Positions 27,957 through 41,687 of a DNA stretch of 64,000 nucleotides are shown one piece after another (position 1 is the first letter of the stretch; each line of letters starts with the position of its first letter). Under the pieces are notes generated by a model. It saw only the letters and a list, made by a program, of their open reading frames with translations. It made no database searches and had not been told where the DNA came from. Location: NCBI GenBank assembly GCA_021799485.1, contig JAJZAK010000002.1, positions 1-64,000 on the forward strand. Reading direction: 5' to 3'. Position numbers and translations under genes: made by a program. This stretch comes from a bacterium (GTDB taxonomy: Bacteria > Elusimicrobiota > Elusimicrobia > UBA1565 > UBA9628).

Positions 27957-27960
<4 letters not shown>

Positions 27961-28808
27961 CGGCGTTTTTTTCTGGCGAAAGTCTTCTTGGGAGCGCGCG
28001 CCGCCTTCTTCGCCGCGGGGGCGGGCAAGATGGGTTTGAAAGACGAAAGCGGCGGGTCGAAAACGACGCGCGTCCCGATATAGCTCCCCGCGAAGAGCTT
28101 CGTGGCGGCGTAGAGAGAAAGGCCCAGGCAATCGTGCGCGAAGGCCTCGTGATCAGGGCGGCTTCTGGGCGGGCCGTGGAGGATCAGGGGGCCGTTCGTA
28201 AACAGGACAAAGGCGCCTAGGGCGTTGGCTCGGCGCGAGCTTCCCACCTGCGGAGGCTCCCATAAGAGCCGTCCGTTTGTTTCGACGTATTGACCGCGCT
28301 CAGGAGCGGCGAAGCGCTCCTTCGAGACGATGCGCGCCAAATTCGGCGGAGCGTTCTTTTCCCCGCCGAACGCGGCGGGAGGAGCGTAGGCGATGGGAAA
28401 GTCCTGGAGGGCCTGATCTCCACGCATGAGCCGGACTTTCCGGCCTGGAACGTCGATCGACACATAGGTGCTCGTGATCTCCCAAACTTTTTCCAGGACC
28501 CTTTTTTGATCTTGGAGCTCAATGCCCGCCTCAAAGAGGCTGCGCCGGGACTGCGTCAAGCTTGAGAGTCCCTTCTTAAACCGCTCGACCCCCTGGCTCT
28601 TCAGCTTGGCGAAGGAGCGAAGCTCGGAGCGAGATTGGAGGGCCTGACGCCGGGATTCCTCGACGCGCGCGAGGGCCCGGGAACTCTGGGCCGCATAGGC
28701 CCGCAGCCATTCCTCCGCCGCGACAAGACCCGCGAGGGTGACGAGCGCCGTGAACAGGGCCAAGCCACGAGGAGCGGGGGCGAGCCATGCTCCCCCGGGC
28801 GCCGCCAC
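27957..28808 (-). CDS. Divergent L,D-transpeptidase-like membrane-anchored protein
   Basis: The 283-residue protein has an N-terminal membrane anchor ([20 protein letters not shown]), a coiled helical stretch and a YkuD-like domain: [17 protein letters not shown] and [15 protein letters not shown]. The canonical SHGCxR active site reads AHDCLGL: Cys (about residue 227) and its preceding His stay, but Gly becomes Asp and the conserved Arg is lost. It may be inactive, altered in specificity or regulatory. A Lys/Arg-rich tail closes the protein. The GTG at 28808, preceded by AAGGG and eight bases after the previous stop, is preferred; ATGs at 28886 and 28856 lie inside the upstream gene. Confidence 0.7.
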
Positions 28809-28815
28809 GTCGCCC

Positions 28816-30138
28816 TTAAAAAATGTAGACCAGCGTTCCCAAAGGGACCGTATCATAGAGTTTTTCCAAGCTGTCGGCGCCGACACGGACGCAGCCGTGA
28901 GAACTCGAGCGTCCCAAAAGCTTCTCGTTTTGAAGCCCGTGAATAAGGTAGCCGTCGCCGAGACTCAGCACATACTGACCCAGGACGCCGCGCACATAGC
29001 GCGACGGATCGTCGGGCGGCGGGATGGGCTCCCGCGCCTCGACGAAAGCCCAATCGGGCCTTCTCCAAAGGGGGTTCTTCGCCTTCGCGAGGACATGGAA
29101 TTCCCCCCGAGGCGTCGCGAACTGCCAGCGCCGACCCGTGTTTTTATCGACGAGATAGTTCCCTCGTCCAACGGAGCAGTCAGCCTCCCAAAGCGAAGCG
29201 AATCCTTTCTTGACATAGAGCTTGTTGACCTTGGAGTCGATGACGAGATAAAGCCGGTTCTTGAGCTTCCAGGCGAGCTTCCTCTCGAGAGCCTCGACGT
29301 CGTCCAAGATCGCCTTCTGGGTCCGAAGATAGCCCTTGTCCTTGGGAAGAAGGTTGGGAAGACCTTGGAGGAATTCGATTTCCCGCGACTGGGCGAGCAC
29401 GCCGTCGGTGATCCTGGTCAACTCGCGAGATTGGCGGAGAAGCGCCGCGGCTTGGTCGTCGAGCCGTTTCGCGCTCTCGTCGATCCGCCACGCGGCCGAA
29501 GCCGTCGCATAGATCGCGGCCGCGGACAAAAGCGCGGCCGCTCCCGCCTTCGCGATCGCCCCTTTCGGCTCCGGCAGCTTTCGAAGCAGCCGCCGGGCAA
29601 AACCCTTCGAAATTTCCTCGATCGGCACGAACCACGAAAGCGCCGCCACGACAAGGCCGAGCAGCGCGCCCCCGAGGACGTCCAGGGGATAGTGTTCCCC
29701 CACGTAAACCCGCGTATAGGAAACAAGAAGCGCCCATCCGAGCCACCACAAAGCCCGCCGGGGATAGAAGCGCGCGGCCGTCAGCGCGATCGCGAAAGCG
29801 ACCGCCGCATGGCCCGATGGGAAAGACGGGGAGTTCTTGAACTCCAGGAGGAGCCGGGCGCCGTGGACCGCCAAGAAGGGACGCGGGCGCTTGATCCCAA
29901 ATTTAATGAGATGTTCGGCAAGGTAGGCCAAAACGGCGCCCAGACCCGCTTTCAAAACCGCGCGTCGACCCCCAGAACCTTCGAAGCACCAGAACCAGGC
30001 GGCCAAGACGCCCATGACGAGTATCCAAAAAGGCCCGCTCGACATGAGGGACATGAAGGAATCGAGAAGTCTCGATCGGAGCTTTTCGTTGAGGAGGACG
30101 AACGCATCAGCGTCCCACCGCAAGAGCCGTTCCATCAT
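28816..30138 (-). CDS. Fusion of PAP2-type phosphatase and L,D-transpeptidase
   Basis: Residues from about 10 to 190 form a multi-pass PAP2 phosphatase with all three motifs: KFGIKRPRPFL, PSFPSGHAAVAF and SYTRVYVGEHYPLDVLGG. These enzymes dephosphorylate undecaprenyl pyrophosphate or phospholipids at the outer face of the inner membrane. A helical linker leads to a YkuD L,D-transpeptidase domain (about 290-440) with IHGLQNEKLLGRSSSHGCVR, catalytic Cys416, which forms 3-3 peptidoglycan cross-links or attaches proteins. Both active sites look intact. The fusion would couple lipid-carrier recycling to wall cross-linking. It sits 11 bases after the ankyrin gene. Confidence 0.9.
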   Translation of the reverse strand: MMERLLRWDADAFVLLNEKLRSRLLDSFMSLMSSGPFWILVMGVLAAWFWCFEGSGGRRAVLKAGLGAVLAYLAEHLIKFGIKRPRPFLAVHGARLLLEFKNSPSFPSGHAAVAFAIALTAARFYPRRALWWLGWALLVSYTRVYVGEHYPLDVLGGALLGLVVAALSWFVPIEEISKGFARRLLRKLPEPKGAIAKAGAAALLSAAAIYATASAAWRIDESAKRLDDQAAALLRQSRELTRITDGVLAQSREIEFLQGLPNLLPKDKGYLRTQKAILDDVEALERKLAWKLKNRLYLVIDSKVNKLYVKKGFASLWEADCSVGRGNYLVDKNTGRRWQFATPRGEFHVLAKAKNPLWRRPDWAFVEAREPIPPPDDPSRYVRGVLGQYVLSLGDGYLIHGLQNEKLLGRSSSHGCVRVGADSLEKLYDTVPLGTLVYIF

Positions 30139-30149
30139 GCCATGTTATA

Positions 30150-30815
30150 TTACTTTCGTACGTCCATGGCCTTCTTTAAGAGAGCAGCGACCTTTTTATG
30201 CCTCCTTAAAACGGCCAACGCGAGCGCCGTGGTGTCGCCATCGGAGGCCGTGGCGCGCGCGTCGGCTCCCGCCGCCAAGAGCGCCGCGACCGTTCCGGCA
30301 TAGCCGCGGCTGGCGGCGTACATCAGCGGCCGCCAACCGCGCCGATCGATGGCGTTGACGTTCGCTCCGGCGGAGGCGAGAATTGCCACGGCGGCGACGC
30401 AGTCCGTCGACGCGGCGAGGACGAGCGGCGTATCCCCGTCGTGATTTTTCGCATCGACGCGCGCCTTGGAGGCGACGAGGACCTTCACGACTTCGGCCCG
30501 CCCCTCCCGGGCCGCGTCGAGAAGCGCTGTTTCCCCGAAACTATCCTCCTGATTGACGTTCGCCCCCGCGGCGACGAGAGCTTCCACCAGCCGGACATAG
30601 CCCTTCGCCGCGGCGGACATAAGGGCCGTCCTGCCGGTCTCGGGGTCGACAGCATTAAGATCCACGCCCTTCTTGATGGCGGCGCGAAGAGCATCGAGGT
30701 CTCCGTTTCGGGCGGCGGCGATGGCGGGGCTCAGGTGCGATTGCGCGGCGGCGGGGATGGCCGCGGCAGCCGCCCAGAACGCCGCCGCGAAGGCCGCGCG
30801 CCGGCTCTTATTCAT
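30150..30815 (-). CDS. Exported ankyrin-repeat protein
   Basis: The 221-residue protein has an Ala-rich signal peptide (AAFAAAFWAAAAAIPAAAQS) and five to six ankyrin repeats, for example TGRTALMSAAAKGYVRLVEA, FGETALLDAAREGRAEVVKV, DGDTPLVLAASTDCVAAVAI and RGWRPLMYAASRGYAGTVAA. It is probably a periplasmic protein-binding scaffold. The start overlaps the macB stop by eight bases, tying it to the efflux operon. The partner is unknown. Confidence 0.88.
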   Translation of the reverse strand: MNKSRRAAFAAAFWAAAAAIPAAAQSHLSPAIAAARNGDLDALRAAIKKGVDLNAVDPETGRTALMSAAAKGYVRLVEALVAAGANVNQEDSFGETALLDAAREGRAEVVKVLVASKARVDAKNHDGDTPLVLAASTDCVAAVAILASAGANVNAIDRRGWRPLMYAASRGYAGTVAALLAAGADARATASDGDTTALALAVLRRHKKVAALLKKAMDVRK

Positions 30816-32751
30816 ACCGCAGGGCCTCGATGGGCGAAAGGAGAGAGGCCTTGCGCGCGGGCCAGAAGCCGAAGACGATTCCCACCCCGACCGAAAAGCC
30901 GAAGGCGAGCATCACCGACTCCGGCGACACGATCGCGGCCCATCCCGCGAAATGGGACATTCCGAAGGCGACCGACCAACCCAGCAGTATCCCCGCCACG
31001 CCCCCGAGAAAAGACAGAACCGTCGATTCGATTAGGAACTGAAGGAGCACGGCTTGGCGGGAAGCGCCGATCGCCTTCCTCAGGCCGATCTCGCGCGTGC
31101 GCTCCGAGACCGAGACCAGCATGATGTTCATGATGCCGATCCCTCCGACAAGAAGCGAGATCGCCGCGACGATGCCCAGGAGCAGGGTCATGGTCCTCGT
31201 CGTCCCCGTCAAAAGCTCCTTGATGCTGGAGAGGTCGCGGACGATAATGCTGTCGCTCTGCTGAGAAAGAATGTGGTGTCGTCTTCGCCAGAGCTTGTGG
31301 ATGGCCGCCGTGACCTTCGCCACCGAACTTTCGTTGTCGCATTGAACGTACATCATGGAGGGATAGGTCTGGCCCAAGACCCTCCTCAAGGCCGTCATCA
31401 GCGGGACGACAACGACGTCGTCCTGGTCGCGGAATCCCGACGCGCCCTTCGCCGGCATGACGCCGATCACCTCGAAGCCGATGCGATTCAAGGTGATGGT
31501 TTTTCCCATGGGGTCCTTCCTTCCAAAAAGCTCGGCGACGACGGTCTGTCCTAGGAGAGCGACGCGGGCCATTCGAAGGTTCTCCGCCTCGGTAAAGAAC
31601 CGCCCGTAGTAGGGCTGGGCGTCGTGCATGGCCGGATAGGCGGTGGTCACGCCGTCGACCGAGGTATCGGCGTTCTTGTTTCCATAGACGACGCGCGCCT
31701 GGCCGTTGGAATTCGGATCGACCGCCGTGACATGGGGAAGCTTGGAGATCGCCCGCACATCCCCCCAAGTGATGGGCTGGTAGCCATGAGGACCCTTGGA
31801 GCCGGCGGTGGGATAAATAATGATGAGGTTGGAGCCCAAGCTCCGGATGCGCGCCTCCATGGCCTTCTGGGCGCCGCGCCCGATCGCCAGCATCGCGATG
31901 ACGGCCCCGACGCCGATTAAGATGCCCAGGATGGACAGGAAACTCCTTGTCTTGTTCGCGGCGGTGGCGCGCAAAGCGCTCCTGGCGTATTCCGCGAGCG
32001 CCGCGAGGCTGACGGGCGGACGCGCGAACGGAGCCGGGGGTTCTTCCTTCGCGGTGTAGGCAGGCGGCCGACGGGAGGCGCCCTTGACATCCTTTTCGAG
32101 CAGACCGTCCTTGATATGCAAAACCCTTTCGGCGTGCGCCGCGATCTCGGGATCGTGGGTCACGATGATGACGGTCAGCCCCCGGGAGTGGAGCTTTTCA
32201 AGCTGGGCCATGATCTCGTTGGCCTGCTCGGTCGCGAGGTTGCCCGTGGGTTCATCCGCGAAAATGATGCGGGGCGAATTGGCGAGAGATCGGGCGATCG
32301 CGACCCTTTGCTGCTGGCCGCCGGAAAGCTGGCTTGGGGCGTGCTCCAGACGGTCGGAAAGGCCCACCAGGCCCAAAAGCTCCTTCGATCGTTCGAGGCG
32401 GTTGAGGCTGCCCGCATACACCATGGGAAGCGCCACGTTCTCGAGCGCGCTCGTGCGCGCAAGAAGGTTGAACATTTGAAAAACAAAACCGATCGTTCGG
32501 GAGCGCAGAAAAGCCGTCTCCTCGTCGTCCAATGTCGAGGTGTCCCTGCCGGCGAGGAGGTAGCGCCCGGAACTGGGCTTATCAAGAAGGCCCAGAATCT
32601 GAAGCAGCGTGGACTTGCCGGAACCCGAACGGCCAACGATGGCGACGAACTCTCCTTCCTCGATCGACAGGGATATCCCCTTAAGGACGGGAACAGACGA
32701 CCCGTCTACGCGGTAAGTCTTCGTCAGCTCGGAGACTTCGATGAGAGGCAT
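30808..32751 (-). CDS. macB: MacB-type ABC transporter (ATPase fused to permease)
   Basis: The 647-residue protein has an N-terminal ATPase with Walker A GRSGSGKST, Q-loop FVFQ, signature QLSGGQQQRVAIARSLA and Walker B IIFADEPTGNL. A MacB permease follows: one helix, a large periplasmic domain, then three C-terminal helices (VGGIGIMNIMLVSVSERTRE is the FtsX-type hallmark). With the adjacent MacA-like adaptor and TolC-like channel it forms a tripartite mechanotransmission exporter. The substrate (antibiotic, lipoprotein or peptide) is unknown. A 35-base gap separates it from macA. Confidence 0.93.
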   Translation of the reverse strand: MPLIEVSELTKTYRVDGSSVPVLKGISLSIEEGEFVAIVGRSGSGKSTLLQILGLLDKPSSGRYLLAGRDTSTLDDEETAFLRSRTIGFVFQMFNLLARTSALENVALPMVYAGSLNRLERSKELLGLVGLSDRLEHAPSQLSGGQQQRVAIARSLANSPRIIFADEPTGNLATEQANEIMAQLEKLHSRGLTVIIVTHDPEIAAHAERVLHIKDGLLEKDVKGASRRPPAYTAKEEPPAPFARPPVSLAALAEYARSALRATAANKTRSFLSILGILIGVGAVIAMLAIGRGAQKAMEARIRSLGSNLIIIYPTAGSKGPHGYQPITWGDVRAISKLPHVTAVDPNSNGQARVVYGNKNADTSVDGVTTAYPAMHDAQPYYGRFFTEAENLRMARVALLGQTVVAELFGRKDPMGKTITLNRIGFEVIGVMPAKGASGFRDQDDVVVVPLMTALRRVLGQTYPSMMYVQCDNESSVAKVTAAIHKLWRRRHHILSQQSDSIIVRDLSSIKELLTGTTRTMTLLLGIVAAISLLVGGIGIMNIMLVSVSERTREIGLRKAIGASRQAVLLQFLIESTVLSFLGGVAGILLGWSVAFGMSHFAGWAAIVSPESVMLAFGFSVGVGIVFGFWPARKASLLSPIEALRYE

Positions 32752-32786
32752 GGCCGGTTAGGCGCTCCTTGGCCGTCCGCTGCCGG

Positions 32787-33743
32787 TCACTTTTTTTTGC
32801 GCCCGAAGGAGAGCGGGCTCGTCGCGGTCTCCTTCTGGGGAACGTACTTCTTGGAGACGATGACGGTCTCCCCCTTCGCGAGCCCCGAAAGAACCTGATC
32901 CTGGGCATCTCCTTCGATTCCGATCTCGACGGGACGGCGCTCCGGGGCTCCCTCGGGACCGGGCACCAAGACGTAGCGCTCCTGGTCCTCGCCCGTCTTG
33001 ACGGCGACCGAGGGGATCAAAAGAGCTTGATCGGCCGTTTTATAGATGATCGAGATGTTGGCCGTCATTTGGGAACGGAAAAACGGCGGCGTTTTAAAGG
33101 GCGCGATTTTCACGTTGTAGGTGATGACGTTGGCGACGTTCGTCCCCTCGTAGAGAATGTCGAAAACCCTCCCTTCCACGGGGCGGTTCGGATAGGAATC
33201 AAGCGCCACCCGAGCCGGCTGGCCGAGCTTCACGTTCCCGATGTCGGACTCATCCACTTGGGCGATCACAATGAGCTTGTCCGCCATCGCGTAAACAACG
33301 GTGTCTTGATTGATCGTCTGTCCGACGACGACATTTTTAAGGATGATGACCCCGCTGATCGGCGCCACGATCGGGGTCGGATTGTAGGCGTCCTGCCATT
33401 TCTTATATTCCGCCGGACCCAGCGCTCTCGCGGCGTCCAGGATCGCGGCCCTCGACGTGGAGCTCATCTTCGCCACGACCTGCCCCTGACGCACGGCGTC
33501 TCCCTCTTGAACGAGAAGGGCGTCGATGCGCCCCGAGGTCGGCGGCTTGAGCTCGACACGATTCAAGGGCGCGACGTAGCCTGTCGTGACGACGGATCCC
33601 TCGATCGAACCCTCGGCGACCACGGCCGTCTTATACTTCAAGGAACCGTCGCGCCTCGACGCGAGGCGGCGCCAACCCGCGATGCCTCCCGCGATCAAAA
33701 CAGCCGCGATGGCGGCCGCGACGAGCTTCGCGCCTTTTTTCAT
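32787..33743 (-). CDS. macA: MacA-like periplasmic adaptor (membrane fusion protein)
   Basis: The 318-residue protein has an N-terminal anchor (KLVAAAIAAVLIAGGIAG), a split lipoyl/hairpin region (VELKPPTSGRIDALLVQEGD and IVAPISGVIILKNVVVGQ), and beta-barrel and membrane-proximal parts (LIVIAQVDESDIGNVKLGQP). The alpha-hairpin is short. The ATG at 33743 overlaps the tolC stop (ATGA). It links MacB in the inner membrane to the TolC-like channel encoded just upstream. Confidence 0.9.
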   Translation of the reverse strand: MKKGAKLVAAAIAAVLIAGGIAGWRRLASRRDGSLKYKTAVVAEGSIEGSVVTTGYVAPLNRVELKPPTSGRIDALLVQEGDAVRQGQVVAKMSSTSRAAILDAARALGPAEYKKWQDAYNPTPIVAPISGVIILKNVVVGQTINQDTVVYAMADKLIVIAQVDESDIGNVKLGQPARVALDSYPNRPVEGRVFDILYEGTNVANVITYNVKIAPFKTPPFFRSQMTANISIIYKTADQALLIPSVAVKTGEDQERYVLVPGPEGAPERRPVEIGIEGDAQDQVLSGLAKGETVIVSKKYVPQKETATSPLSFGRKKK

Positions 33744-35122
33744 TGTCCCAGCTCCTTTCCAAGGGCTCTCTCCCAATTCGCCTCTTGTTGGAGAGCGGTA
33801 TTCTCGGCTTGAAGGTAGATGATTTCCTGCGAGAGGCGCTGCGCCACGATCGGCTCCCAAATATCAAAAACCATGAGACCCGCCTGATACAGGATGTCAT
33901 CCTCGGCATTTCTTTGACGCCAAGCCTTGAGCAAGTTGAGCTGATTGATCTGCTGGTCCTGAGCCGACGCGAAAGTCGACCAGGTGCTCTCCAGATCCTG
34001 CCTCGCGGCGTATTCGACGGTGCGCAGCTGCTGGACGGCCGCGTCGCGCGCTTTCATGGCGGACTTGATTTGATACCACGCGCTCGTGAGGCCCCCGGAA
34101 AGCAAGGGGAAGCTCACCATCCCGACCACGCTGTAGTTGCTCTGAGCGTCTTGGTGCGAAAATTCAGCGCCCAGTTGGGAGTAGTTGCCGGTGACCTTGG
34201 CCTCGGGAATGAGAAGAGAGCGCGTCTGGCTCAGGGAAGCCTCGGCGCTTTTAACGGCGGCTTTCTGAGTGGCCACGTCCGGCCGGTTCTCCAGGACCTT
34301 GTCGAGCGCGGCATCGTCCGGCAAGGATCGGACTTGGTAGGCCGCCGGGAAAGAGGCGTCTATCTCCAACGGCCGGAAGTCCCCCCAGCCCAAATACTGG
34401 GCGAGGGCCTTCTGATTTTTTCGCAAATTGCGCAACGCCTGATAATACCCCTCCAAGGCGTTGAGAAAGAGCCCTCGCATCACGAGCATATTGCCCTTCG
34501 ATTCCTGTCCCGATCGATAGCGCAGATATATCATCTCGTAGTTTTTGTGCCAAAGGTCTTGGATCATCCAGTTGACATTGATGGAGGATTGCGAATAGAG
34601 AAGGTTCGAGAAGGCGACCTTCAGGTTGTAGCGCAGGGCTTGAGAGGCGCCGCGGCGGCCGGCGATCGAGGAGAGCCATAACGCCCGCGCGGACCAGATG
34701 CTCGCCAAGGCCGAATAGCTGAAAATATTCATGCTGGCGGCCCCCTGGGCCTCGTAGGGGAAATTAGCGACGAAACCCTGGGAGTAGCTGACTCCCGCCA
34801 AACCTTGGAACTTGTTGTAGGTATCCGAAAGCTGGACGTTCGGGAGAAAGCCATTGTAGCTGTTGTAATACGACGCCAACTGCTCTTGCTGAGTCTTCCA
34901 CGCGGCGCGCAGGCTGGGCTCATTTTTGAGCGCGATCTTGACGCAGTCCTCCCAGCTAAGCTTGGCCTGGGGCTTATCCAACTGCGGCATGATATAGACC
35001 ACTCCGGGCACCGTGGAACTCGATGCCGGGATATCGAACGTGAGCGGCTGCAACGCCCCGGCCGCCGAGGCGCTGGCCGGTTCCCCCAAAAACGCCCCCA
35101 TCGCGAGAATGAAAGGAATCAC
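33740..35122 (-). CDS. TolC-family outer-membrane efflux protein (second copy)
   Basis: The 460-residue protein has an N-terminal signal region and the duplicated OEP architecture: LSWEDCVKIALKNEPSLRAA in the first half, LDKVLENRPDVATQKAAVKS in the second, and long Gln/Ala-rich coiled helices. It should form the outer-membrane duct for the MacAB exporter encoded next. It begins 37 bases after the Spy/CpxP-like gene. A second TolC homologue is encoded at 39858-41171. Confidence 0.92.
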   Translation of the reverse strand: MIPFILAMGAFLGEPASASAAGALQPLTFDIPASSSTVPGVVYIMPQLDKPQAKLSWEDCVKIALKNEPSLRAAWKTQQEQLASYYNSYNGFLPNVQLSDTYNKFQGLAGVSYSQGFVANFPYEAQGAASMNIFSYSALASIWSARALWLSSIAGRRGASQALRYNLKVAFSNLLYSQSSINVNWMIQDLWHKNYEMIYLRYRSGQESKGNMLVMRGLFLNALEGYYQALRNLRKNQKALAQYLGWGDFRPLEIDASFPAAYQVRSLPDDAALDKVLENRPDVATQKAAVKSAEASLSQTRSLLIPEAKVTGNYSQLGAEFSHQDAQSNYSVVGMVSFPLLSGGLTSAWYQIKSAMKARDAAVQQLRTVEYAARQDLESTWSTFASAQDQQINQLNLLKAWRQRNAEDDILYQAGLMVFDIWEPIVAQRLSQEIIYLQAENTALQQEANWERALGKELGQ

Positions 35123-35159
35123 GGAGTCACCCTAATACAGCCAAGGGATTCACCGCAAG

Positions 35160-35546
35160 TCACCGCGATGTCGTTTTCCCAGCCAAATCGGGGTGCCGGG
35201 CATCCCAGGCAGCCGTCCGTTCCCTGAAACGACGGCGTTGGTCCGGATTAAGCGCCTTCTCAATGTCGGAGCGCATCGAGAGCTGCACGGCCCTGAACTT
35301 CGATCGGGTTTCCTGATGGAGCGCCGCGATCCTGACTTTGTAGGATTCGAGGACTTGCCTCACCGCGGCCTGCTGGGACGGGTCCAATTGGAAGCGATTT
35401 GTTAATTTAGCGATCATGACCTTGATATCGGGCCCTTCGCGCCAAAACCGCCGGTGAGCGGACAATTCATGGCGTCCGCCCCACCAAACGCCGCCGAGAA
35501 AGCCCGCGATCGCCCCGGCGACCAACCATGACGCGCGCGAGCTCAT
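35160..35546 (-). CDS. Spy/CpxP-like periplasmic stress protein
   Basis: The 128-residue protein has an N-terminal membrane segment (ASWLVAGAIAGFLGGVWWGG) and a helical domain with LNPDQRRRF near the end, a form of the LTxxQ motif of Spy/CpxP/ZraP proteins, preceded by QLDPSQQAAVRQVLESYKVR. Such proteins act as periplasmic chaperones or metal/stress sensors. The start overlaps the anti-sigma gene stop (ATGA). Its position after a sigma/anti-sigma pair suggests a role in sensing or relieving envelope stress. Confidence 0.75.
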   Translation of the reverse strand: MSSRASWLVAGAIAGFLGGVWWGGRHELSAHRRFWREGPDIKVMIAKLTNRFQLDPSQQAAVRQVLESYKVRIAALHQETRSKFRAVQLSMRSDIEKALNPDQRRRFRERTAAWDARHPDLAGKTTSR

Positions 35547-36022
35547 CGCACGGCCAGGGCCGAGCTTTCAAGATCGCCGATGCTTGATGCCGTCGGCTCG
35601 TCCAACCAATCCATCATCATGATCCCTCCCCGCTGCTGCGTGAGAATGTCCGCCGCCAGGCTCCCCCGGTCGGCGGGTCCCCATGAGAGCCACAGGGCGA
35701 TGGCGGCCGCGGCAAGGGACGCCGCCGGAATCAGCCACCAGCGCCATGACAAGACGGTCCGCCATGGCGGGACCCGCGCGCCATCCTCCTCCCCGGCGAT
35801 CCGGCTCATGACGAGGCGCGAGAATCGCTCGGGATCGAATCCTTGATGCGCCGAGGAGGCGCTCAATAAAAGGCACTCGGCGGTCCTTTGTCGGGCCTCA
35901 AGAGCCTCGCGGCAATCCCGGCAAAAGCGCCGATGGGACTCGAACTCGTCTCGAGAGGACGAGTCCATCTCGCCGTCATGAAATTCATCCAGCGCCGCCT
36001 TAAACTCGTCGTGATTCATCAA
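35543..36022 (-). CDS. Zinc-type anti-sigma factor (transmembrane)
   Basis: The 159-residue protein has an N-terminal ZAS domain (HRRFCRDC matches HxxxCxxC), one membrane helix (about 93-113, WWLIPAASLAAAAIALWLSW) and a short periplasmic tail. ZAS proteins hold an ECF sigma factor inactive until a signal arrives. Its ATG follows the sigma gene stop after three bases, the usual pairing. The periplasmic part is small, so sensing may rely on the neighbouring Spy-like protein. Confidence 0.88.
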   Translation of the reverse strand: MMNHDEFKAALDEFHDGEMDSSSRDEFESHRRFCRDCREALEARQRTAECLLLSASSAHQGFDPERFSRLVMSRIAGEEDGARVPPWRTVLSWRWWLIPAASLAAAAIALWLSWGPADRGSLAADILTQQRGGIMMMDWLDEPTASSIGDLESSALAVR

Positions 36023-36025
36023 TCG

Positions 36026-36619
36026 TTAGACGCCGCCGCGCGATGAAAAGTGTCGCATATTCTCGTCGAGGCTTTGGCGGGCGCGTTTGAGCCTTCCCTT
36101 GACGGCGTCCAGGCTGCAATCCAGAATTTCAGCGATTTCGTCGTAGTTGAAGCCCTGCACCTCGCGCAGGACGAGGATCAAGCGGTGTTGAGGGGATAGG
36201 CGGGCGAGGATTTTTTCGGCTAGGTCGGCGGACTCAATCTTCGCGGCGCAATCGCCGGGAGCGCCCTCTCCCTCGCGCAGCCGCCGTTCATCCACCGAAG
36301 CATCCTCCGTGATCGACTCCTGTCTAATCCGCGAATTCCGACGCAGGAAGTCTTGGCAGGCGTTGACGGCGATGCGATGGAGCCACGTCGAGAACGCCGA
36401 TCCTCCTCGAAAGCTCCGCAGGCTCTTCCAAGCCTTGACGAAAGCTTCCTGAGCCGCGTCCTCCGCGGATTCACGCCCGCGCAGCATCGAAAGGCAAAGC
36501 GCGAAGAGCCTCGGGGAATGCCGGCGCACCAGTTCCGCGTAGGCATCACGGTCTCCTTCCCGGGCGCGCAGGACGAGATCCAATTCCCCGGGGATGCCCG
36601 GCGTCCCCTGGTGGCTCAC
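36026..36619 (-). CDS. ECF-family RNA polymerase sigma factor
   Basis: The 197-residue protein has sigma region 2 (DAYAELVRRHSPRLFALCLS, AEDAAQEAFVKAWKSLRSFR, FSTWLHRIAVNACQDFLRR) and region 4 (LSPQHRLILVLREVQGFNYD, EIAEILDCSLDAVKGRLKRA). The GTG at 36619 overlaps the TGA of the RND permease gene as GTGA. It was preferred over an upstream ATG at 36730, which would read 111 bases into that gene. This places the sigma factor in direct translational coupling with an efflux pump, followed by its anti-sigma factor. Confidence 0.92.
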   Translation of the reverse strand: MSHQGTPGIPGELDLVLRAREGDRDAYAELVRRHSPRLFALCLSMLRGRESAEDAAQEAFVKAWKSLRSFRGGSAFSTWLHRIAVNACQDFLRRNSRIRQESITEDASVDERRLREGEGAPGDCAAKIESADLAEKILARLSPQHRLILVLREVQGFNYDEIAEILDCSLDAVKGRLKRARQSLDENMRHFSSRGGV

Positions 36620-39600
36620 GGGGCTTCGCGCGCGGGCCCCGGCGGCGCCTCCCCCAAGACCTCGAGAGCCTCGCGCAGCTCCCGGTCGTGACGGTGGCTC
36701 TCCAGGGGCGTGAGCAGGCTGTAGGCGCAAGGGACGACGAAAAGAGTGAGCAGCGTCGATATGAAGACTCCCCCGATCACGGCAATCGCCATCGGACGGA
36801 TGATCTCCGCCCCCGGTCCAAGCGCCAAGGCCTCGGGGATCGCCCCGGCGATCGTCGCGACGGACGTCATCAGGATGGGCCGAAGCCGAACCGGGCAGGC
36901 ATCAAGGAGCGCCGCGCGAGTCTCCATGCCGGCCAGGCGCCGCACGTTCGTAAAATCGACGAGTAGGATCGAATTTTTCTTGACGATGCCCATGACGAGA
37001 AGAATGCCGATCAAGCTGTAGATATTGATGGAAGTATCCGTCAGCCTCATGGCCGCCAGAGCTCCCGTCACGCCGAAGGGCAAGGCCAGCAGAATCGTGA
37101 AGGGATGAATGAAGCTGTTGAACTGGCTCGCCAATACCATGTAAGCGACGAAGATTCCCCAGGCGAGGGCGAAGAAGAGGCTCCGGAAAGATTGTTGGAA
37201 AGCCTCGGAGCTCCCTGAAATGGTGAGGTGGTATCCCTGCCCCTTGGGAAGAACCTCCGAGGCCTGGCGCTGGATGTAGTCGATCACGTCCGACTGGGAC
37301 TTATCCTTGCGAAAGTTCCCGAAGATGCCGATGCCGCGCTCGCGGTTATAGCGGGTGATGGTGAGAAGGGTCCTTCCCGGCGCCATCTTGATGACGTCCT
37401 TCAAGCGCACCATCTCTCCTTGGACGTTCCGGATCCATATGCGGTCGATGTCCGCGGGATCCTCGTTTTCGTCAGCGGTGAGCTTGACCTGGATGTCGTC
37501 GCGGTGACCCGTCGCGTCCGTGTATTTATTAGGAAGCATTTTCATGCCGCCCACCATCGCGGCGACCGCGTTGGCGACGGTCGTCACCTCCGCGCCGCGG
37601 GCGAGGGCCTTGGCGCGATCGGGATAAATCTCCGTCTCGGGCATGTTGGGGTTGTAGTCCGTGTCCAAGTCCTGCATCAGCCCGGAGGCTTTAAGCCTGT
37701 TGAATATCTCCATCGCGTAACCCACGAGCTTGTCCCAGTTGGGTCCTTGCACCTCGAACTCAATGGGGTAGCCGCGCTGCGCCGTGAAACCGGCCTGGGA
37801 CAAGTCGAGGATCGCCACGCGTTGGACTCCGGGAATCTTGGAGAAGGCGCCGCGCAGGTAGCCCATGAATTGTTGCTGACTCGGGCGCTTTCGAAAGGGG
37901 GACGCCACCGGCCGGTCCGAAAAATCCTTGAGCGTGACGAAAAGGATGCCCTGATTGACGAGGCCGCCGCCGAAGCCGCCCACCGCCTGGTAATAGTTTT
38001 GAACTTCGGGCCGGGACTTCAAAATCCTTCCGGCCTCCTGAAAGACGCCGTCCGTGTAGGCCAGCGACGATCCCATCTTCGTATACATCGTCACCATGAA
38101 CTGGCTCTGGTCCTGCGGCGGAATGAATTCCTTGCGCAGCGACTTCGCCGTCATCAGCGACAATGCAAAGAGCGCGACCGCCGTTCCAAGAACAGTCCGG
38201 CGCCGATCGAGGCACCAAGCCAAGAGCCGTCGGTAGAGGCCGGAAAGCCGCTCCATCCCCGCGTTAACCTTGCGGGTGGCCCAGTTCTCCCCCCGCAGCG
38301 ACAAAAATTGAGAGGTGCGCATGGGAGCGAGCGTGAGGGCTTCGAGGAGCGAGAGCAATATCGTGGCCGACATCGTAACGCCGAACTGATAGAAGAATTT
38401 CCCTACGATCCCGCGCATGAAGACGACCGGGACGAAGATAGCGAGAATGGCGAGCGACGACGCGATCGCCGCGGTCGTGATCTCCCGCGCGCCCACGAGA
38501 GACGCCTGCACGCGGCTCATGCCCGACTCGTGATAGCGCACGATGTTCTCCAGCACCATGATGGCGTCGTCCACGACGATGCCGATCGACAGAGAAAGCG
38601 CCATGAGCGTGAAGCTGTTCAAGGTGAATCCCCAAAGCGCGATGAACATGAAGGCTCCGACCAGGGATACGGGGATCGCGAGGATGACGTTCATCGCCGC
38701 GCTCCAAGTGCCCAGAAAGAGGTAGCAAACCACCGAGGTCAGCAGTACCGCCATGACGAGCGTGAAGATGAGCTCGTGGATGGAATCCTTGATGAACTTC
38801 GTCGTGTCGATCACGATCCCCATGTTCATGTTCTTGGGAAGAACCTGCTGGAGAAACTTGACCTTGGCCTTGACGGCGTCCGCGACCGCGACGGCGTTCG
38901 TGCCGTGCTGCTTGATGACCCCGACGCCCATCGTCGGAAAGACCCCGTTGAATCGCGAAAGCCTCCGCACTTCGTCGGTTCCCTCCTCGCAGCGCGCGAC
39001 GTCCCCCAGGCGGATGCGGCGCCACACCGGCCCCAGGACCGAGCGGGCCGGAATGATCAACTCCTCGCACTCGGGGGCGTTGTGGAACTGCGAATGCACC
39101 CGGACATAAGTCTCGGTTGGGCCCTTGTCCTGCCATCCCGTCGGGGTCAACTGATGCTCGGTGTTAATGGCGTTGATGACGTCGTCGAAGGCGATCTCGC
39201 GCTTGACCATCGCGTCGTTATGGAACCATACCCGCATCTGGGGATCGACATAGCCCCCCAAATAGACGTTTCCCACCCCGTTGATGGTCGTGATGGCGTC
39301 CTTCAAGTGGTCCCGGACAAAAAGCGAGATGTCGCGCAGGGTGGTCGACGCGCCGTAGACCGCCGTCCACATAATCGGCTGGTCGTTCGGATTCGTCTTC
39401 GTGATCGTCGGGGGATCGATCGTCTGAGGGAGGTTTTTCTGCGCCGAGGAGATGTAGGACTGAACCTGCTCGAGCGCCGCGTCGATGTCGGAGTCGAGGT
39501 TGAGCTGGATGATGATCTGCGTCATCCCTTCCTGGGAGACGGACTGCACGAGCTTGATGCCGTTGACGCTCATGACGGCGTCCTCGATGATGTCCGCCAC

Positions 39601-39861
39601 GGCCGCCTCCATGACGTCGGGAGGCGCCCCGGCCCAGGTGACGGTGACGGTGATGACGGGGAAATCGACGTCCGGAAGCTGGCTGACGCCCAGCCGCGCA
39701 AAGGACAAGGCCCCGAAGCCGATGATCCCGATCATGAGCATCCAAGCGAAAACCGGATTTTTAATGGAGATATCGGAGAGAGAAAAAGCGCGCGCCGCGG
39801 CGAAGAACTTGGCGGCCTTGCCCGGCCCGTTGCCCGCCGCGGGCTTTTCGTTGCCGCTCAT
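36616..39861 (-). CDS. RND (HAE1/AcrB-type) efflux permease
   Basis: The 1081-residue protein has the 12-helix RND plan with two large periplasmic loops: NPVFAWMLMIGIIGFGALSF, LPDVDFPVITVTVTWAGAPP, and the proton-relay Asp pair in SIGIVVDDAIMVLENIV; the relay Lys is in GIVKKNSILLVDF. It exports drugs, detergents or lipid-like molecules using the proton gradient. Its ATG overlaps the upstream tolC stop. No membrane fusion protein gene lies between tolC and this gene, unlike standard operons, so the adaptor must come from elsewhere, possibly the MacA-like protein. Confidence 0.95.
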   Translation of the reverse strand: MSGNEKPAAGNGPGKAAKFFAAARAFSLSDISIKNPVFAWMLMIGIIGFGALSFARLGVSQLPDVDFPVITVTVTWAGAPPDVMEAAVADIIEDAVMSVNGIKLVQSVSQEGMTQIIIQLNLDSDIDAALEQVQSYISSAQKNLPQTIDPPTITKTNPNDQPIMWTAVYGASTTLRDISLFVRDHLKDAITTINGVGNVYLGGYVDPQMRVWFHNDAMVKREIAFDDVINAINTEHQLTPTGWQDKGPTETYVRVHSQFHNAPECEELIIPARSVLGPVWRRIRLGDVARCEEGTDEVRRLSRFNGVFPTMGVGVIKQHGTNAVAVADAVKAKVKFLQQVLPKNMNMGIVIDTTKFIKDSIHELIFTLVMAVLLTSVVCYLFLGTWSAAMNVILAIPVSLVGAFMFIALWGFTLNSFTLMALSLSIGIVVDDAIMVLENIVRYHESGMSRVQASLVGAREITTAAIASSLAILAIFVPVVFMRGIVGKFFYQFGVTMSATILLSLLEALTLAPMRTSQFLSLRGENWATRKVNAGMERLSGLYRRLLAWCLDRRRTVLGTAVALFALSLMTAKSLRKEFIPPQDQSQFMVTMYTKMGSSLAYTDGVFQEAGRILKSRPEVQNYYQAVGGFGGGLVNQGILFVTLKDFSDRPVASPFRKRPSQQQFMGYLRGAFSKIPGVQRVAILDLSQAGFTAQRGYPIEFEVQGPNWDKLVGYAMEIFNRLKASGLMQDLDTDYNPNMPETEIYPDRAKALARGAEVTTVANAVAAMVGGMKMLPNKYTDATGHRDDIQVKLTADENEDPADIDRIWIRNVQGEMVRLKDVIKMAPGRTLLTITRYNRERGIGIFGNFRKDKSQSDVIDYIQRQASEVLPKGQGYHLTISGSSEAFQQSFRSLFFALAWGIFVAYMVLASQFNSFIHPFTILLALPFGVTGALAAMRLTDTSINIYSLIGILLVMGIVKKNSILLVDFTNVRRLAGMETRAALLDACPVRLRPILMTSVATIAGAIPEALALGPGAEIIRPMAIAVIGGVFISTLLTLFVVPCAYSLLTPLESHRHDRELREALEVLGEAPPGPAREAP

Positions 39862-41171
39862 GGCAAGTCAGCCTTGGGAAGGCTCTTTGTCGAGCGGCCC
39901 GCCGCGACCGCGAGCTGGATGGCGGAAAGGAAAGTCTGGGCCCGCGAGGCGGCCAAGGTCAGTCTTATCTGCTGCAATGTCGTCAGGGAATCGAGGACGC
40001 TGATATTCGTCACGAGCCCGCGACGGTAGTCCCTCATCTGGGCTTCGGCCGATTGGGCCGCGAGCGCCTCCGCATTATCATAGGCCCGCACTTCATCGAT
40101 CCCGAAAATGAGGTTCCCGTAATAGGTGCGCACTTCCTGGATGGCGGTCCTCAGGATCATGGAAAAATTCTGCTCCGCGCTGCGCATCTGCGAGCGCGCC
40201 GTGCGGATGGAGGCCGCGATCTGGCCTCCCGTATACAGGGGTATCGAGGCGAAGAATCCGGCGTCCCACTTGATGACGTTAAGAAATCCGGGCTGCACGG
40301 GGTAATAGTTGCCTTGGAAGGTGATGAGAGGAATCATCGCCCGTTGAGCGCTCTTTAAGGAAAATTTGGCGCTTTCCAACGCCTGCTTTTGAGCCCTGAC
40401 GTCGGGGCGCATCGAGACGCGTTCGACGTAATTGGAGAGCGGCAGGGGGTGCGCGTAGGTTTCGTCTTTCGGCATGAAGCGCGCCTCGACCCCGGTCAAA
40501 AAGATCATCAGTTCTTCGGCAGCCCCTTCCTGGGCCTTCATGGCCAGGATCTGGGCCGCTGTCTGCGCTCGTTGGGAGTCCGTGGCTAGAAAATCGCTGT
40601 CTCGCGAACGGCCGATGCGCACCCAAGCCGAGAGATCCCTGGCCCGGTCCTTTAGGATTTTGAGCATCGCTTCGTCGATCGAGACGTTTTTCTGGACGTT
40701 CCAGAGATTGTAATAGGCGGCCGCGACGCTCTGATAGAGCATGTCCTCGGCCCGCAGCATGTTGTAGACGGCTTGGCGCTTATTCGCCCGCCCCGCCTGA
40801 ACCGCCAAGATCTCCCGGAAACCGGAGAAAACGAGCTGCTTGACGTTGAAGTTCGCGTACTGCTGGCTCGGGGGGCTGAAGGGCTGGTACTGAATAGGGA
40901 TGGCGGTTTCCCATTTTTGGTACAGGTTCGATGTGATGTTGGGCTTGGCCGCGGCCCACAGGTTGTCGAGCTGGCTGAGCGCCTGGACGACGGCTTCGGA
41001 GCTTATCGCGAGGGTCTCCGAGCGCTTGAGGGCGAGCTGATACGCCTCCTCAAGACCGATCGGGCGAGGGGGCATCGCCGTGCTGATCAGGACGTCCAGC
41101 GCCCGGCAGGGAGGCACGGCCAGGGCGAAAAGAACTCCTACTCCTATATATAAGGAAGGCTTGAATCTCAT
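39858..41171 (-). CDS. TolC-family outer-membrane efflux protein (first copy)
   Basis: The 437-residue protein has a signal peptide (LYIGVGVLFALAVPPCRA) and the duplicated OEP fold: PIGLEEAYQLALKRSETLAI and YVERVSMRPDVRAQKQALES, with long coiled helices. A Cys near the signal cleavage site (PPCRA) may allow lipidation, but the lipobox is poor. The ATG overlaps the marR stop, and the stop overlaps the RND start, so the three genes form a tight unit. Confidence 0.92.
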   Translation of the reverse strand: MRFKPSLYIGVGVLFALAVPPCRALDVLISTAMPPRPIGLEEAYQLALKRSETLAISSEAVVQALSQLDNLWAAAKPNITSNLYQKWETAIPIQYQPFSPPSQQYANFNVKQLVFSGFREILAVQAGRANKRQAVYNMLRAEDMLYQSVAAAYYNLWNVQKNVSIDEAMLKILKDRARDLSAWVRIGRSRDSDFLATDSQRAQTAAQILAMKAQEGAAEELMIFLTGVEARFMPKDETYAHPLPLSNYVERVSMRPDVRAQKQALESAKFSLKSAQRAMIPLITFQGNYYPVQPGFLNVIKWDAGFFASIPLYTGGQIAASIRTARSQMRSAEQNFSMILRTAIQEVRTYYGNLIFGIDEVRAYDNAEALAAQSAEAQMRDYRRGLVTNISVLDSLTTLQQIRLTLAASRAQTFLSAIQLAVAAGRSTKSLPKADLP

Positions 41172-41602
41172 TGGGATGAGAAGCGCCCGAGCAGGCGGCC
41201 GATGATGCGGCCGAAGATCGCCAGCTCTTCCTCCGGCAGCTCCGAAAGGATCTTTCCCCAGGCCCGTCCGATCTCCTCCTCGAAATGGCGCAATAGGGCC
41301 CTTCCCTTGGGGCTCAAGCCCACGAGAACGAGCCTTCGGTCCGCGTCGTCATGATACCGGGCCAGGTAGCCGCAATCGATGAGGCGGTCGACGAGGCCCG
41401 TGAGGGTCGGCAAGCTCTTTTTGAGGCTTGTCGCGAGAACGCCCATTGGAATTTTTTCTCCGGCTTGGACCGCCGAGAGGACGAGGAATTGAGTGCGCGT
41501 GAGCTCCGCCGTAGAGCCCGCGTCGGCCACAGACATGCGCCACAGGTGGGGAACGAGGCGGGCCATGAGACGGCCCGTCGCGGCCGGCGACAACTCTGAC
41601 AT
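41168..41602 (-). CDS. MarR-family transcriptional regulator
   Basis: The 144-residue protein has the MarR winged-helix core: LTRTQFLVLSAVQAGEKIPM, GVLATSLKKSLPTLTGLVDR and GYLARYHDDADRRLVLVGLS (wing with the DxRxxxL pattern). It is the first gene of the efflux run and probably represses its own operon, releasing DNA when it binds a toxic ligand. It is divergent from the phosphohexomutase gene across a 100-base region containing both promoters. Confidence 0.92.
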   Translation of the reverse strand: MSELSPAATGRLMARLVPHLWRMSVADAGSTAELTRTQFLVLSAVQAGEKIPMGVLATSLKKSLPTLTGLVDRLIDCGYLARYHDDADRRLVLVGLSPKGRALLRHFEEEIGRAWGKILSELPEEELAIFGRIIGRLLGRFSSQ

Positions 41603-41617
41603 GGTTTGTCTTGCCTA

Positions 41618-41647
41618 TATATTCGCTTTTCCTAATTATTATGTCAA
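41618..41647 (-). promoter_or_regulatory. Promoter of the marR-tolC-RND operon
   Basis: The minus strand has a consensus TTGACA (41642-41647), an 18-base spacer and AATATA (41618-41623). The predicted leader is about nine bases. The AT-rich spacer is a plausible site for MarR autoregulation, but no clear palindrome was found. Confidence 0.55.
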
Positions 41648-41687
41648 ACGCATCTTGGCAATTCCAGGCGTCGTCCTTCCGGCTTTT

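Follow-up and report, generated by a model that had tools for sequence, protein, structure and literature searches.

In Cupriavidus metallidurans, the CnrYXH system places an extracytoplasmic function (ECF) sigma factor, its anti-sigma factor and a periplasmic sensor upstream of an RND pump. The BaeSR envelope stress response of Escherichia coli and Salmonella has spy, mdtA and acrD as its core regulon (PMC3160322), and BesA of Borrelia has been described as an RND adaptor completely lacking the alpha-hairpin (PMC3807786). According to one review, the tip-to-tip model of efflux pumps may face its biggest challenge in assemblies that lack the hairpin (PMC4446572). Sigma/anti-sigma/sensor sets in efflux clusters, Spy and pumps under one regulator, and a hairpin-less adaptor are therefore each known singly. 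Here we describe a locus that brings such elements together in a 64,000-nucleotide stretch of DNA from a bacterium of the phylum Elusimicrobiota (the window; contig JAJZAK010000002.1 of assembly GCA_021799485.1, positions 1 to 64,000). In it, marR-tolC-RND genes are followed by genes for an ECF sigma factor, a zinc anti-sigma factor, a Spy-like protein and a tolC-macA-macB system. We consider it likely that an envelope-stress sigma switch links two efflux modules in this locus, with the freed sigma factor transcribing from an in-gene promoter, CGACACTT-N15-CGTCTA. In a literature search whose coverage excluded most subscription journals, no paper was found with four of the terms ECF sigma factor, anti-sigma factor, MacB, TolC and Spy, and at the level of titles there was nothing on an efflux/sigma circuit in Elusimicrobia or on a hairpin-less MacA.

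The ten open reading frames (ORFs) of the cluster all lie on the minus strand (Table 1), and Pfam and profile matches agree with the families and the order given in an earlier note made from the DNA letters. Both other species of the genus have the genes in this order, which is more than chance would give; in one of the two a contig end cuts the cluster within macA. Overlaps of 4-8 bases join marR to tolC1, tolC1 to RND, RND to sigma, anti-sigma to Spy, tolC2 to macA and macB to ank, and the remaining gaps measure 3-37 bases. The GTGA overlap claimed in the same note is present, being shared by the RND stop codon and the GTG start of the sigma gene. The sigma factor consists of regions 2 and 4 only and has an anti-sigma gene adjoining, as ECF factors do, and MacB carries the ATP-binding cassette (ABC), periplasmic core and FtsX-like domains of a MacAB-TolC exporter. 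For the anti-sigma gene, an ATG start at 36019 agrees better with relatives than the TTG at 36022 of the listed ORF. The assembly that contains the window comprises 2.31 Mb in 61 contigs at 90% completeness.

The motif CGACACTT-N15-CGTCTA occurs once in the window, at 36055-36027, within the last codons and stop of the sigma gene and just upstream of the anti-sigma gene. Since the sigma gene ends CGA CAC TTT ... GTC TAA, its stop codon belongs to the second motif block. A first form of the motif, CGACAC-N17-SGTCTA, came from reading by eye the regions upstream of free-standing sigma genes, where the words TAGAAT and GTCTAA are enriched and GTCTAA led to the motif. A scan of ten genomes placed almost every exact match at sigma loci, and across the 56 genomes of the order there were 51 exact matches to CGACACTT-N15-CGTCTA versus none to the reversed pattern used as a control. 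Among 101 scanned sequences, 46 of 53 sigma genes carry the motif at their 3' end with at most one mismatch. Codon usage there is constrained: in 40 sigma genes that read Arg-His at this place, the arginine codon is CGA in 36, compared with 7% of arginine codons in the rest of the genes, and the histidine and valine codons are CAC and GTC in all 40. In two loci (L125 and L256) the motif stands 16-17 bases past the sigma stop codon, indicating that it is not a feature of the protein. The motif, its place, its spread and its constraint at the base level are, like the gene order, read directly from the DNA; that it is likely the promoter of this sigma factor is what we infer from them.

Several observations weigh against this assignment. 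Seven of the 53 sigma genes lack the motif at the 3' end (L090, L091, L094, L097, L253, L254 and L265; in L091 a one-mismatch copy lies further inside the gene). Exact matches were found in 27 of 36 genomes with this sigma factor versus none of ten without it, leaving nine sigma-bearing genomes with no exact match, and the contrast is partly built in because most exact matches lie inside the sigma gene. When only matches outside that gene are counted, the comparison becomes 10 of 36 versus none of ten genomes, which is weak alone. A strong copy stands in only 4 of 43 regions upstream of free-standing sigma genes, and an unbiased word count for a shared promoter in such regions missed the motif, with nothing clearly above shuffles. 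The motif was moreover first spotted by eye, after looking, the 51-versus-0 control scan being the independent check. Finally, AAC is common in ECF promoters and the -35 half of this motif has none. The known ECF words GGAAC and TGAAC were considered as the promoter and rejected, as they are not enriched upstream of free-standing sigma genes; TGAAC is raised in nine RND-coupled sigma regions, which are close relatives reading coding DNA. In several of the regions upstream of free-standing sigma genes (37 loci), TAGAAT-like words lie near the start codon, which suggests sigma-70-like starts with very short leaders for many of these genes.

A different owner of the motif is one alternative. It could be the site of another regulator, or the promoter of another sigma factor, merely housed beside this sigma gene; further ECF genes are present in these genomes, and the motif and sigma factor are paired from sequence. 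We think this improbable, as the motif has two blocks at promoter spacing, stands on the coding strand at a distance of mostly 2-40 bases from the following start codon, and has no exact match in any of the ten genomes without this sigma factor.

If the motif is the promoter of this sigma factor, the genes behind it give a predicted regulon. By our own sorting, 30 of the 51 exact matches are sigma 3' ends and five lie upstream of sigma genes. Seven precede genes for secreted Spy/LTXXQ/Metal_resist proteins (all six tested against Pfam gave E <0.001, and the seventh, in L337, is cut by a contig end and was judged by eye), three precede adaptor-less tolC-RND pairs (in G038, G064 and, for a copy of 45-48%, G062), and two precede the MdtA-RND genes of MdtABC-like pumps. 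One match, in the window's genome, precedes a gene for a TRL-like lipoprotein, and the last three precede genes for a PATR-repeat protein, an adenylation-domain protein (by eye) and a 136-residue secreted protein. With one mismatch allowed, the motif also stands directly upstream of three more tolC-RND pairs (the second copy of G033, G042 and G043) and of the tolC-macAB operons of G013 and G051, and in G049 an exact copy lies about 100 bases upstream of tolC-macAB. G051 has sigma and tolC-macAB on separate contigs, with the motif upstream of both. The one-mismatch background, estimated from 121 matches to the reversed pattern in ten genomes, is by our arithmetic about 5 per million bases, so that five motif matches near the starts of 43 tolC-RND copies far exceed chance. 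In the window's own genome (G000, contig 17; L301, 6549-7878), a one-mismatch motif is followed by a secreted Spy-like gene and then an ankyrin-repeat gene, an order that recalls macB and ank in the window. In genus g6 (L088, L096, L079 and L093) the motif lies about 600 bases upstream of sigma, and the intervening gene, as read in L089 (8808-9329), encodes by its look a small secreted protein rich in histidine and cysteine.

The marR-tolC-RND genes of the window appear to have a start of their own. Upstream of marR, a footprint with TTGACA and an AT-rich second half is kept in three species while the flanks differ, and it is a single site in the window's genome at up to three mismatches; we read it as sigma-70 -35 and -10 elements. 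The window has no copy of the sigma motif upstream of marR-tolC-RND, its single copy lying between sigma and anti-sigma, and sigma is therefore probably made with the RND operon. Nor is there a copy in the RND 3' end of the window. A hidden sigma promoter in that 3' end was rejected for the genus, as conservation at four-fold sites is 0.74 over codons 1020-1080 versus 0.83 over the whole gene. Given the marR footprint and the absence of extra constraint at the RND 3' end, the simplest reading for this genus is that the sigma factor is made from the marR-tolC-RND transcript. The proposed coupling of sigma synthesis to that of the pump is supported by sequence at the level of translation, the GTGA overlap being present in the window and in one sister species.

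One could go further and take the whole cluster, from marR to ank, as a single operon under MarR alone, with the sigma factor acting on unrelated genes and its position incidental. The overlaps and short gaps throughout, the conserved promoter footprint upstream of marR, and a count of terminator-like sites in the region that only slightly exceeds that of shuffles (16 versus a mean of 10.6) would all fit. We nevertheless give this reading small credence, since the motif at the sigma 3' end is conserved at the base level across the phylum and also stands upstream of free tolC-macAB operons. The suggestion of the earlier note that one stress circuit controls both exporters applies to relatives, as a predicted regulon, with the motif found upstream of tolC-macAB and of six copies of adaptor-less tolC-RND. 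For the window it is not supported in that form: the sole copy of the motif falls between the sigma and anti-sigma genes, and marR-tolC-RND is preceded by a sigma-70-like footprint of its own. There the coupling is probably one-way, from the RND operon to sigma and from sigma to MacAB.

The sigma switch that we favor would work as follows. Sigma, encoded by the last gene of the MarR-controlled marR-tolC-RND operon and translated through its overlap with the RND gene, would be held by the membrane-bound zinc anti-sigma factor, with the membrane-anchored Spy-like protein as a probable co-sensor. Freed sigma would then transcribe from the motif in the end of its own gene. The spacing would put the 5' end of this transcript near 36020, very close to the anti-sigma ATG, and the transcript would yield anti-sigma, Spy-like protein, TolC, MacA, MacB and probably the ankyrin-repeat protein, such that exporter and brake would rise together. 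The circuit would be a feed-forward one, in which a MarR ligand would raise the RND pump and the supply of sigma, and an envelope signal would free the sigma. In trans, sigma would serve, in the window's genome, a secreted Spy-like chaperone and the TRL-like lipoprotein and, in relatives, further pumps. The parts of this scheme that we infer are the release step, the signal and the control by MarR.

Control of the RND module appears to have changed among relatives. In genus g9 the regulator before the pump is, by eye, TetR-like instead of MarR. A TGAC-N6-GTCA box occurs within 2.4 kb upstream of RND in 20 of 43 loci, six of which have sigma downstream, and in most of the 20 it lies about 1.8 kb upstream. 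All five loci with the sigma motif upstream of tolC1 are without the box, suggesting that control of the RND module was exchanged more than once. At this distance, in loci L135-L165, TetR-like genes start beside a TGACTNACCAGTCA-type palindrome, and the box could define a TetR regulon.

The window cluster is a join of two modules, each of which recurs apart. The first comprises the ECF sigma factor, the zinc anti-sigma factor, the membrane-anchored Spy-like protein, tolC, macA and macB. In 27 of 40 neighborhoods around relatives of sigma or Spy (L074-L113), sigma, Spy, tolC and macA, in some with anti-sigma or macB, follow one another in one direction; two neighborhoods (L085 and L111) stop at a contig end past Spy, and the mac operon of L113 is transcribed divergently. 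The arrangement is kept in other classes too: among 20 MacA neighborhoods from outside the order, sigma and further genes of the set stand upstream of tolC-macA in seven (L251, L252, L253, L254, L256, L265 and L267, with no Spy called in L256); twelve lack the set, and L270 is cut short. L267, from another class, has a different RND pump with its own adaptor, followed by sigma, anti-sigma, a 163-residue ORF, tolC and macA, and looks like an independent case of the same neighborhood.

The second module is regulator-tolC-RND, always without an adaptor gene. We traced it through 43 RND copies (at least 49% identity) in 39 of the 56 genomes of the order. A tolC gene lies directly upstream of RND in 39 of the 43, the remaining copies being at contig ends or unclear, and none has the in-operon adaptor gene typical of HAE1 pumps. 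Neighbor genes were assigned by BLAST with a reference set of about 20 proteins, which an unrelated type of adaptor would escape, and some of the genomes are incomplete. Downstream, 11 copies lead via sigma into tolC-macAB (L155 ends after tolC), six into tolC-macAB without sigma, four into tolC-emrA-emrB and 22 into neither, some of these last lying at contig ends. This variation indicates that the join in the window is one of several arrangements. In genus g6 (L140, L143, L146 and L089), the adaptor-less tolC-RND is followed by another adaptor-bearing exporter, tolC-emrA-emrB.

The absence of an RND adaptor gene, also claimed by the earlier note, was borne out in that no such gene adjoins RND in the window. 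The transmembrane Asp-Asp pair of HAE1 RND permeases is their proton relay, and all 13 aligned sequences keep the corresponding D431 and D432. A tree of 32 RND proteins (a quick tree, with some long branches among the outgroups) places the proteins of the window's order together with those of Omnitrophota and Bacteriovoracales in a single group with a Shimodaira-Hasegawa-like approximate likelihood ratio test (SH-aLRT) value of 99; this group holds 17 adaptor-less rows and one of unknown context, and its nearest neighbors, from Aminicenantes, Myxococcaceae and Vicinamibacteria, have adaptor genes. A dedicated RND adaptor encoded elsewhere, which the earlier note had named as the finding that would count against it, was looked for in the window's genome (90% complete assembly) and not found: that genome has eight RND stretches and six adaptor proteins, each of which either lies next to another transporter or an ABC/metal system or has no clear partner. 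They are an EmrA-like protein on contig 61 with a major facilitator superfamily transporter and tolC, a CusB-like protein on contig 26 with its RND, MacA, one on contig 37 adjoining an RND, and two on contig 20, one of these beside ABC genes. The adaptor-like protein adjoining RND on contig 37 (L132) reads without an obvious lipoyl or hairpin part.

The RND permease might borrow an adaptor, either the MacA of the cluster or the EmrA-like protein on contig 61, much as AcrD of E. coli borrows AcrA. We rate this a serious candidate, at somewhat short of even chances. Supporting it, tolC-RND is joined to tolC-macAB in 17 of the 43 copies (one cut by a contig end before macA) and to tolC-emrAB in four, and the contig 61 protein carries R-x3-L-x6-S, a TolC-contact motif (PMC3391258). 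Against it, the other 22 copies have neither macAB nor emrAB seen adjoining, EmrA-type adaptors are described as having no membrane-proximal domain (PMC4158417), and the MacA of the cluster has no hairpin. As for MacA, which the earlier note thought perhaps shared between the two exporters, this may or may not be so: the RND family is adaptor-less also where macA is not nearby, four genomes link it to emrA-emrB, and the usual hairpin is missing from this MacA. That the RND-TolC1 pair works without any adaptor seems to us rather doubtful. The adaptor-less clade across three groups of bacteria and the 43 copies with no dedicated adaptor gene point in this direction, but the permease is of the full-length HAE1 type, the sister families have adaptor genes, and adaptors can be unlinked.

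The earlier note called the tolC-macA-macB system complete, which is correct for gene content but not for MacA itself, whose alpha-hairpin is cut to about 25 conserved residues. The first and second lipoyl halves are separated by 36 positions in all 37 sequences of the class, the window's included, and in all 20 sequences from across the phylum (57 of 57 examined). In an AlphaFold2 model with a predicted local distance difference test (pLDDT) score of 83.7, helices 96-108 and 110-119, at a pLDDT of about 90, occupy the place where other adaptors carry the long hairpin, and the closest structural match of the model is BesA (E 7.2e-18). Few parts of the protein are as conserved as this mini-hairpin, in which S94, S95, R98, A100, D103, A104, A105, G109 and W116 are invariant in 23 of 23 sequences. 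RxxxLxxxxxxS, the RLS motif, is reported as the TolC-touching motif of adaptors (PMC3391258). R98 and L102 of MacA keep its spacing, with glycine in the third place (G109 for S) in 23 of 23 and 18 of 20 sequences, and the window's MacA thus has neither the long alpha-hairpin nor the full RLS tip of MacAB-TolC systems. The mini-hairpin may be a TolC-touching tip without its shaft. MacA matches at E 1e-45 or better occur in 196 of 340 genomes of the phylum, and an Omnitrophota genome holds a relative at 40% identity; a plasmid search gave only distant matches (<60% identity), and the mini-hairpin signature was absent from all 80 named RND neighborhoods (L171-L250), which cover the surroundings of RND genes only. 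A bolder and, in our view, unlikely proposal would be trans-envelope export free of hairpin adaptors, in which MacA keeps a TolC-touching tip, R-x3-L-x6-G, on its lipoyl domain, the RND clade forms a two-part TolC-RND pump, and one ECF sigma factor with a promoter in its own stop codon runs pumps and Spy-like chaperones as a counterpart of Bae/Cpx.

Two proteins are encoded between sigma and tolC2. The anti-sigma factor matches the anti-sigma model NF052375 below its cut-off (E 4e-7). In an alignment of 15 rows, H30, C34 and C37 are invariant, H4 is present in at least 90%, and a hydrophobic stretch follows, which gives the H-x3-C-x2-C motif, upstream histidine and membrane helix of the zinc-binding anti-sigma (ZAS) group. 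The third protein has an N-terminal anchor, LTXXQ-type columns and invariant G15, G19, L54, Q58, L99 and Q103, and belongs by these features to the Spy/LTXXQ superfamily, the window protein itself falling below the Metal_resist cut-off; at E 0.01, 19 of 23 aligned sequences match Metal_resist and 17 match LTXXQ. Searched against PDB, the family profile found Spy at 3.6e-6 and returned no CnrX. A model of the protein (pLDDT 71.5) has helices 41-52, 56-98 and 101-117 and gave only chance matches in a structure search, none of them significant. A metal-sensor set of the CnrYXH type was rejected, as the aligned Spy-like proteins have no invariant His, Met or Cys, i.e. no conserved metal ligand, and the profile search gives Spy. 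Its gene position makes the Spy-like protein a probable co-sensor.

Table 1. Features of the efflux cluster and its surroundings in the window
Feature	Position	Strand	Evidence
Conserved promoter/operator footprint before marR, TTTGACA..TTAGGAAAAG.GAATATAT	41617..41648	-	Kept in G000, G001, G002
marR-family regulator	41168..41602	-	Pfam MarR_2 E 5.1e-10
tolC1, outer membrane channel of the RND module	39858..41171	-	Pfam OEP E 2.7e-33
RND permease (HAE1-like), no adaptor gene	36616..39861	-	ACR_tran E 2.5e-256
ECF sigma factor, GTG start in GTGA overlap	36026..36619	-	Sigma70_r2 E 7.7e-22, Sigma70_r4_2 E 8.2e-14
Predicted ECF promoter CGACACTT-N15-CGTCTA, in sigma 3' end and stop codon	36027..36055	-	Exact match
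Membrane anti-sigma factor, zinc motif H4, H30, C34, C37	35543..36019	-	zf-HC2 E 3.1e-4, below cut-off
Membrane-anchored Spy/LTXXQ-like protein	35160..35546	-	Metal_resist E 7.9e-4, below cut-off
tolC2, channel of the MacAB module	33740..35122	-	OEP E 4.5e-19
macA adaptor, reduced hairpin	32787..33743	-	TIGR01730 107.6 bits, over cut-off; PRK11578 MacA below its cut-off
macA codons 94-121, mini-hairpin in place of alpha-hairpin	33381..33464	-	Helices 96-108, 110-119 only
macB ABC exporter	30808..32751	-	MacB_PCD E 2.6e-48, ABC_tran, FtsX
Secreted ankyrin-repeat protein (ank), 8-base overlap with macB	30150..30815	-	Ank_2 E 1.5e-64; same place in G001
PAP2 + L,D-transpeptidase protein, 11 bases past ank	28816..30138	-	PAP2 E 2.2e-24, YkuD E 2.6e-17

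Past ank, the PAP2/L,D-transpeptidase gene is followed by a second ORF through an overlap (27957-30138 for the two, minus strand), in the same order in G001, and these two genes may form the end of the sigma-driven unit.

Overall, the locus offers, for a phylum that is largely uncultured, a predicted envelope-stress regulon with its promoter code, and a predicted ECF promoter kept at the base level inside the final codons of the sigma gene. For an open question in efflux it further provides a natural test across the phylum: in the sequences examined, MacAB as a rule has a hairpin-less adaptor, and the RND pumps alongside have no adaptor gene. The closest likeness in gene order is to CnrYXH, with which it shares a three-gene set of ECF sigma factor, anti-sigma factor and membrane-anchored helical protein within an efflux cluster. 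Unlike in CnrYXH, the anti-sigma factor is of the zinc type, the third protein is by profile nearer to Spy than to CnrX and has no conserved metal ligands, MacAB is the main linked pump, and the predicted regulon holds Spy-like chaperones. As in BaeSR, Spy-like chaperones would share one control with an MdtABC-like pump and with an RND permease that has no adaptor gene of its own; this putative likeness is drawn from the shared promoter motif, and where BaeSR is a two-component system the regulator here is an ECF sigma factor and MacAB is included. The exporter resembles MacAB-TolC in its MacB domains, its neighboring tolC and macA genes and the N-terminal membrane anchor of MacA, and differs in the roughly 25 residues that replace the alpha-hairpin. 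In lacking that hairpin MacA resembles BesA, but in BesA a flexible loop of 9 residues takes its place and the partner is an RND pump, whereas here there is a conserved two-helix mini-hairpin and macB adjoins macA. Finally, the RND permease gene stands without an adaptor gene, as do those of AcrD-type permeases, but unlike these it is nearly always paired with a tolC of its own.

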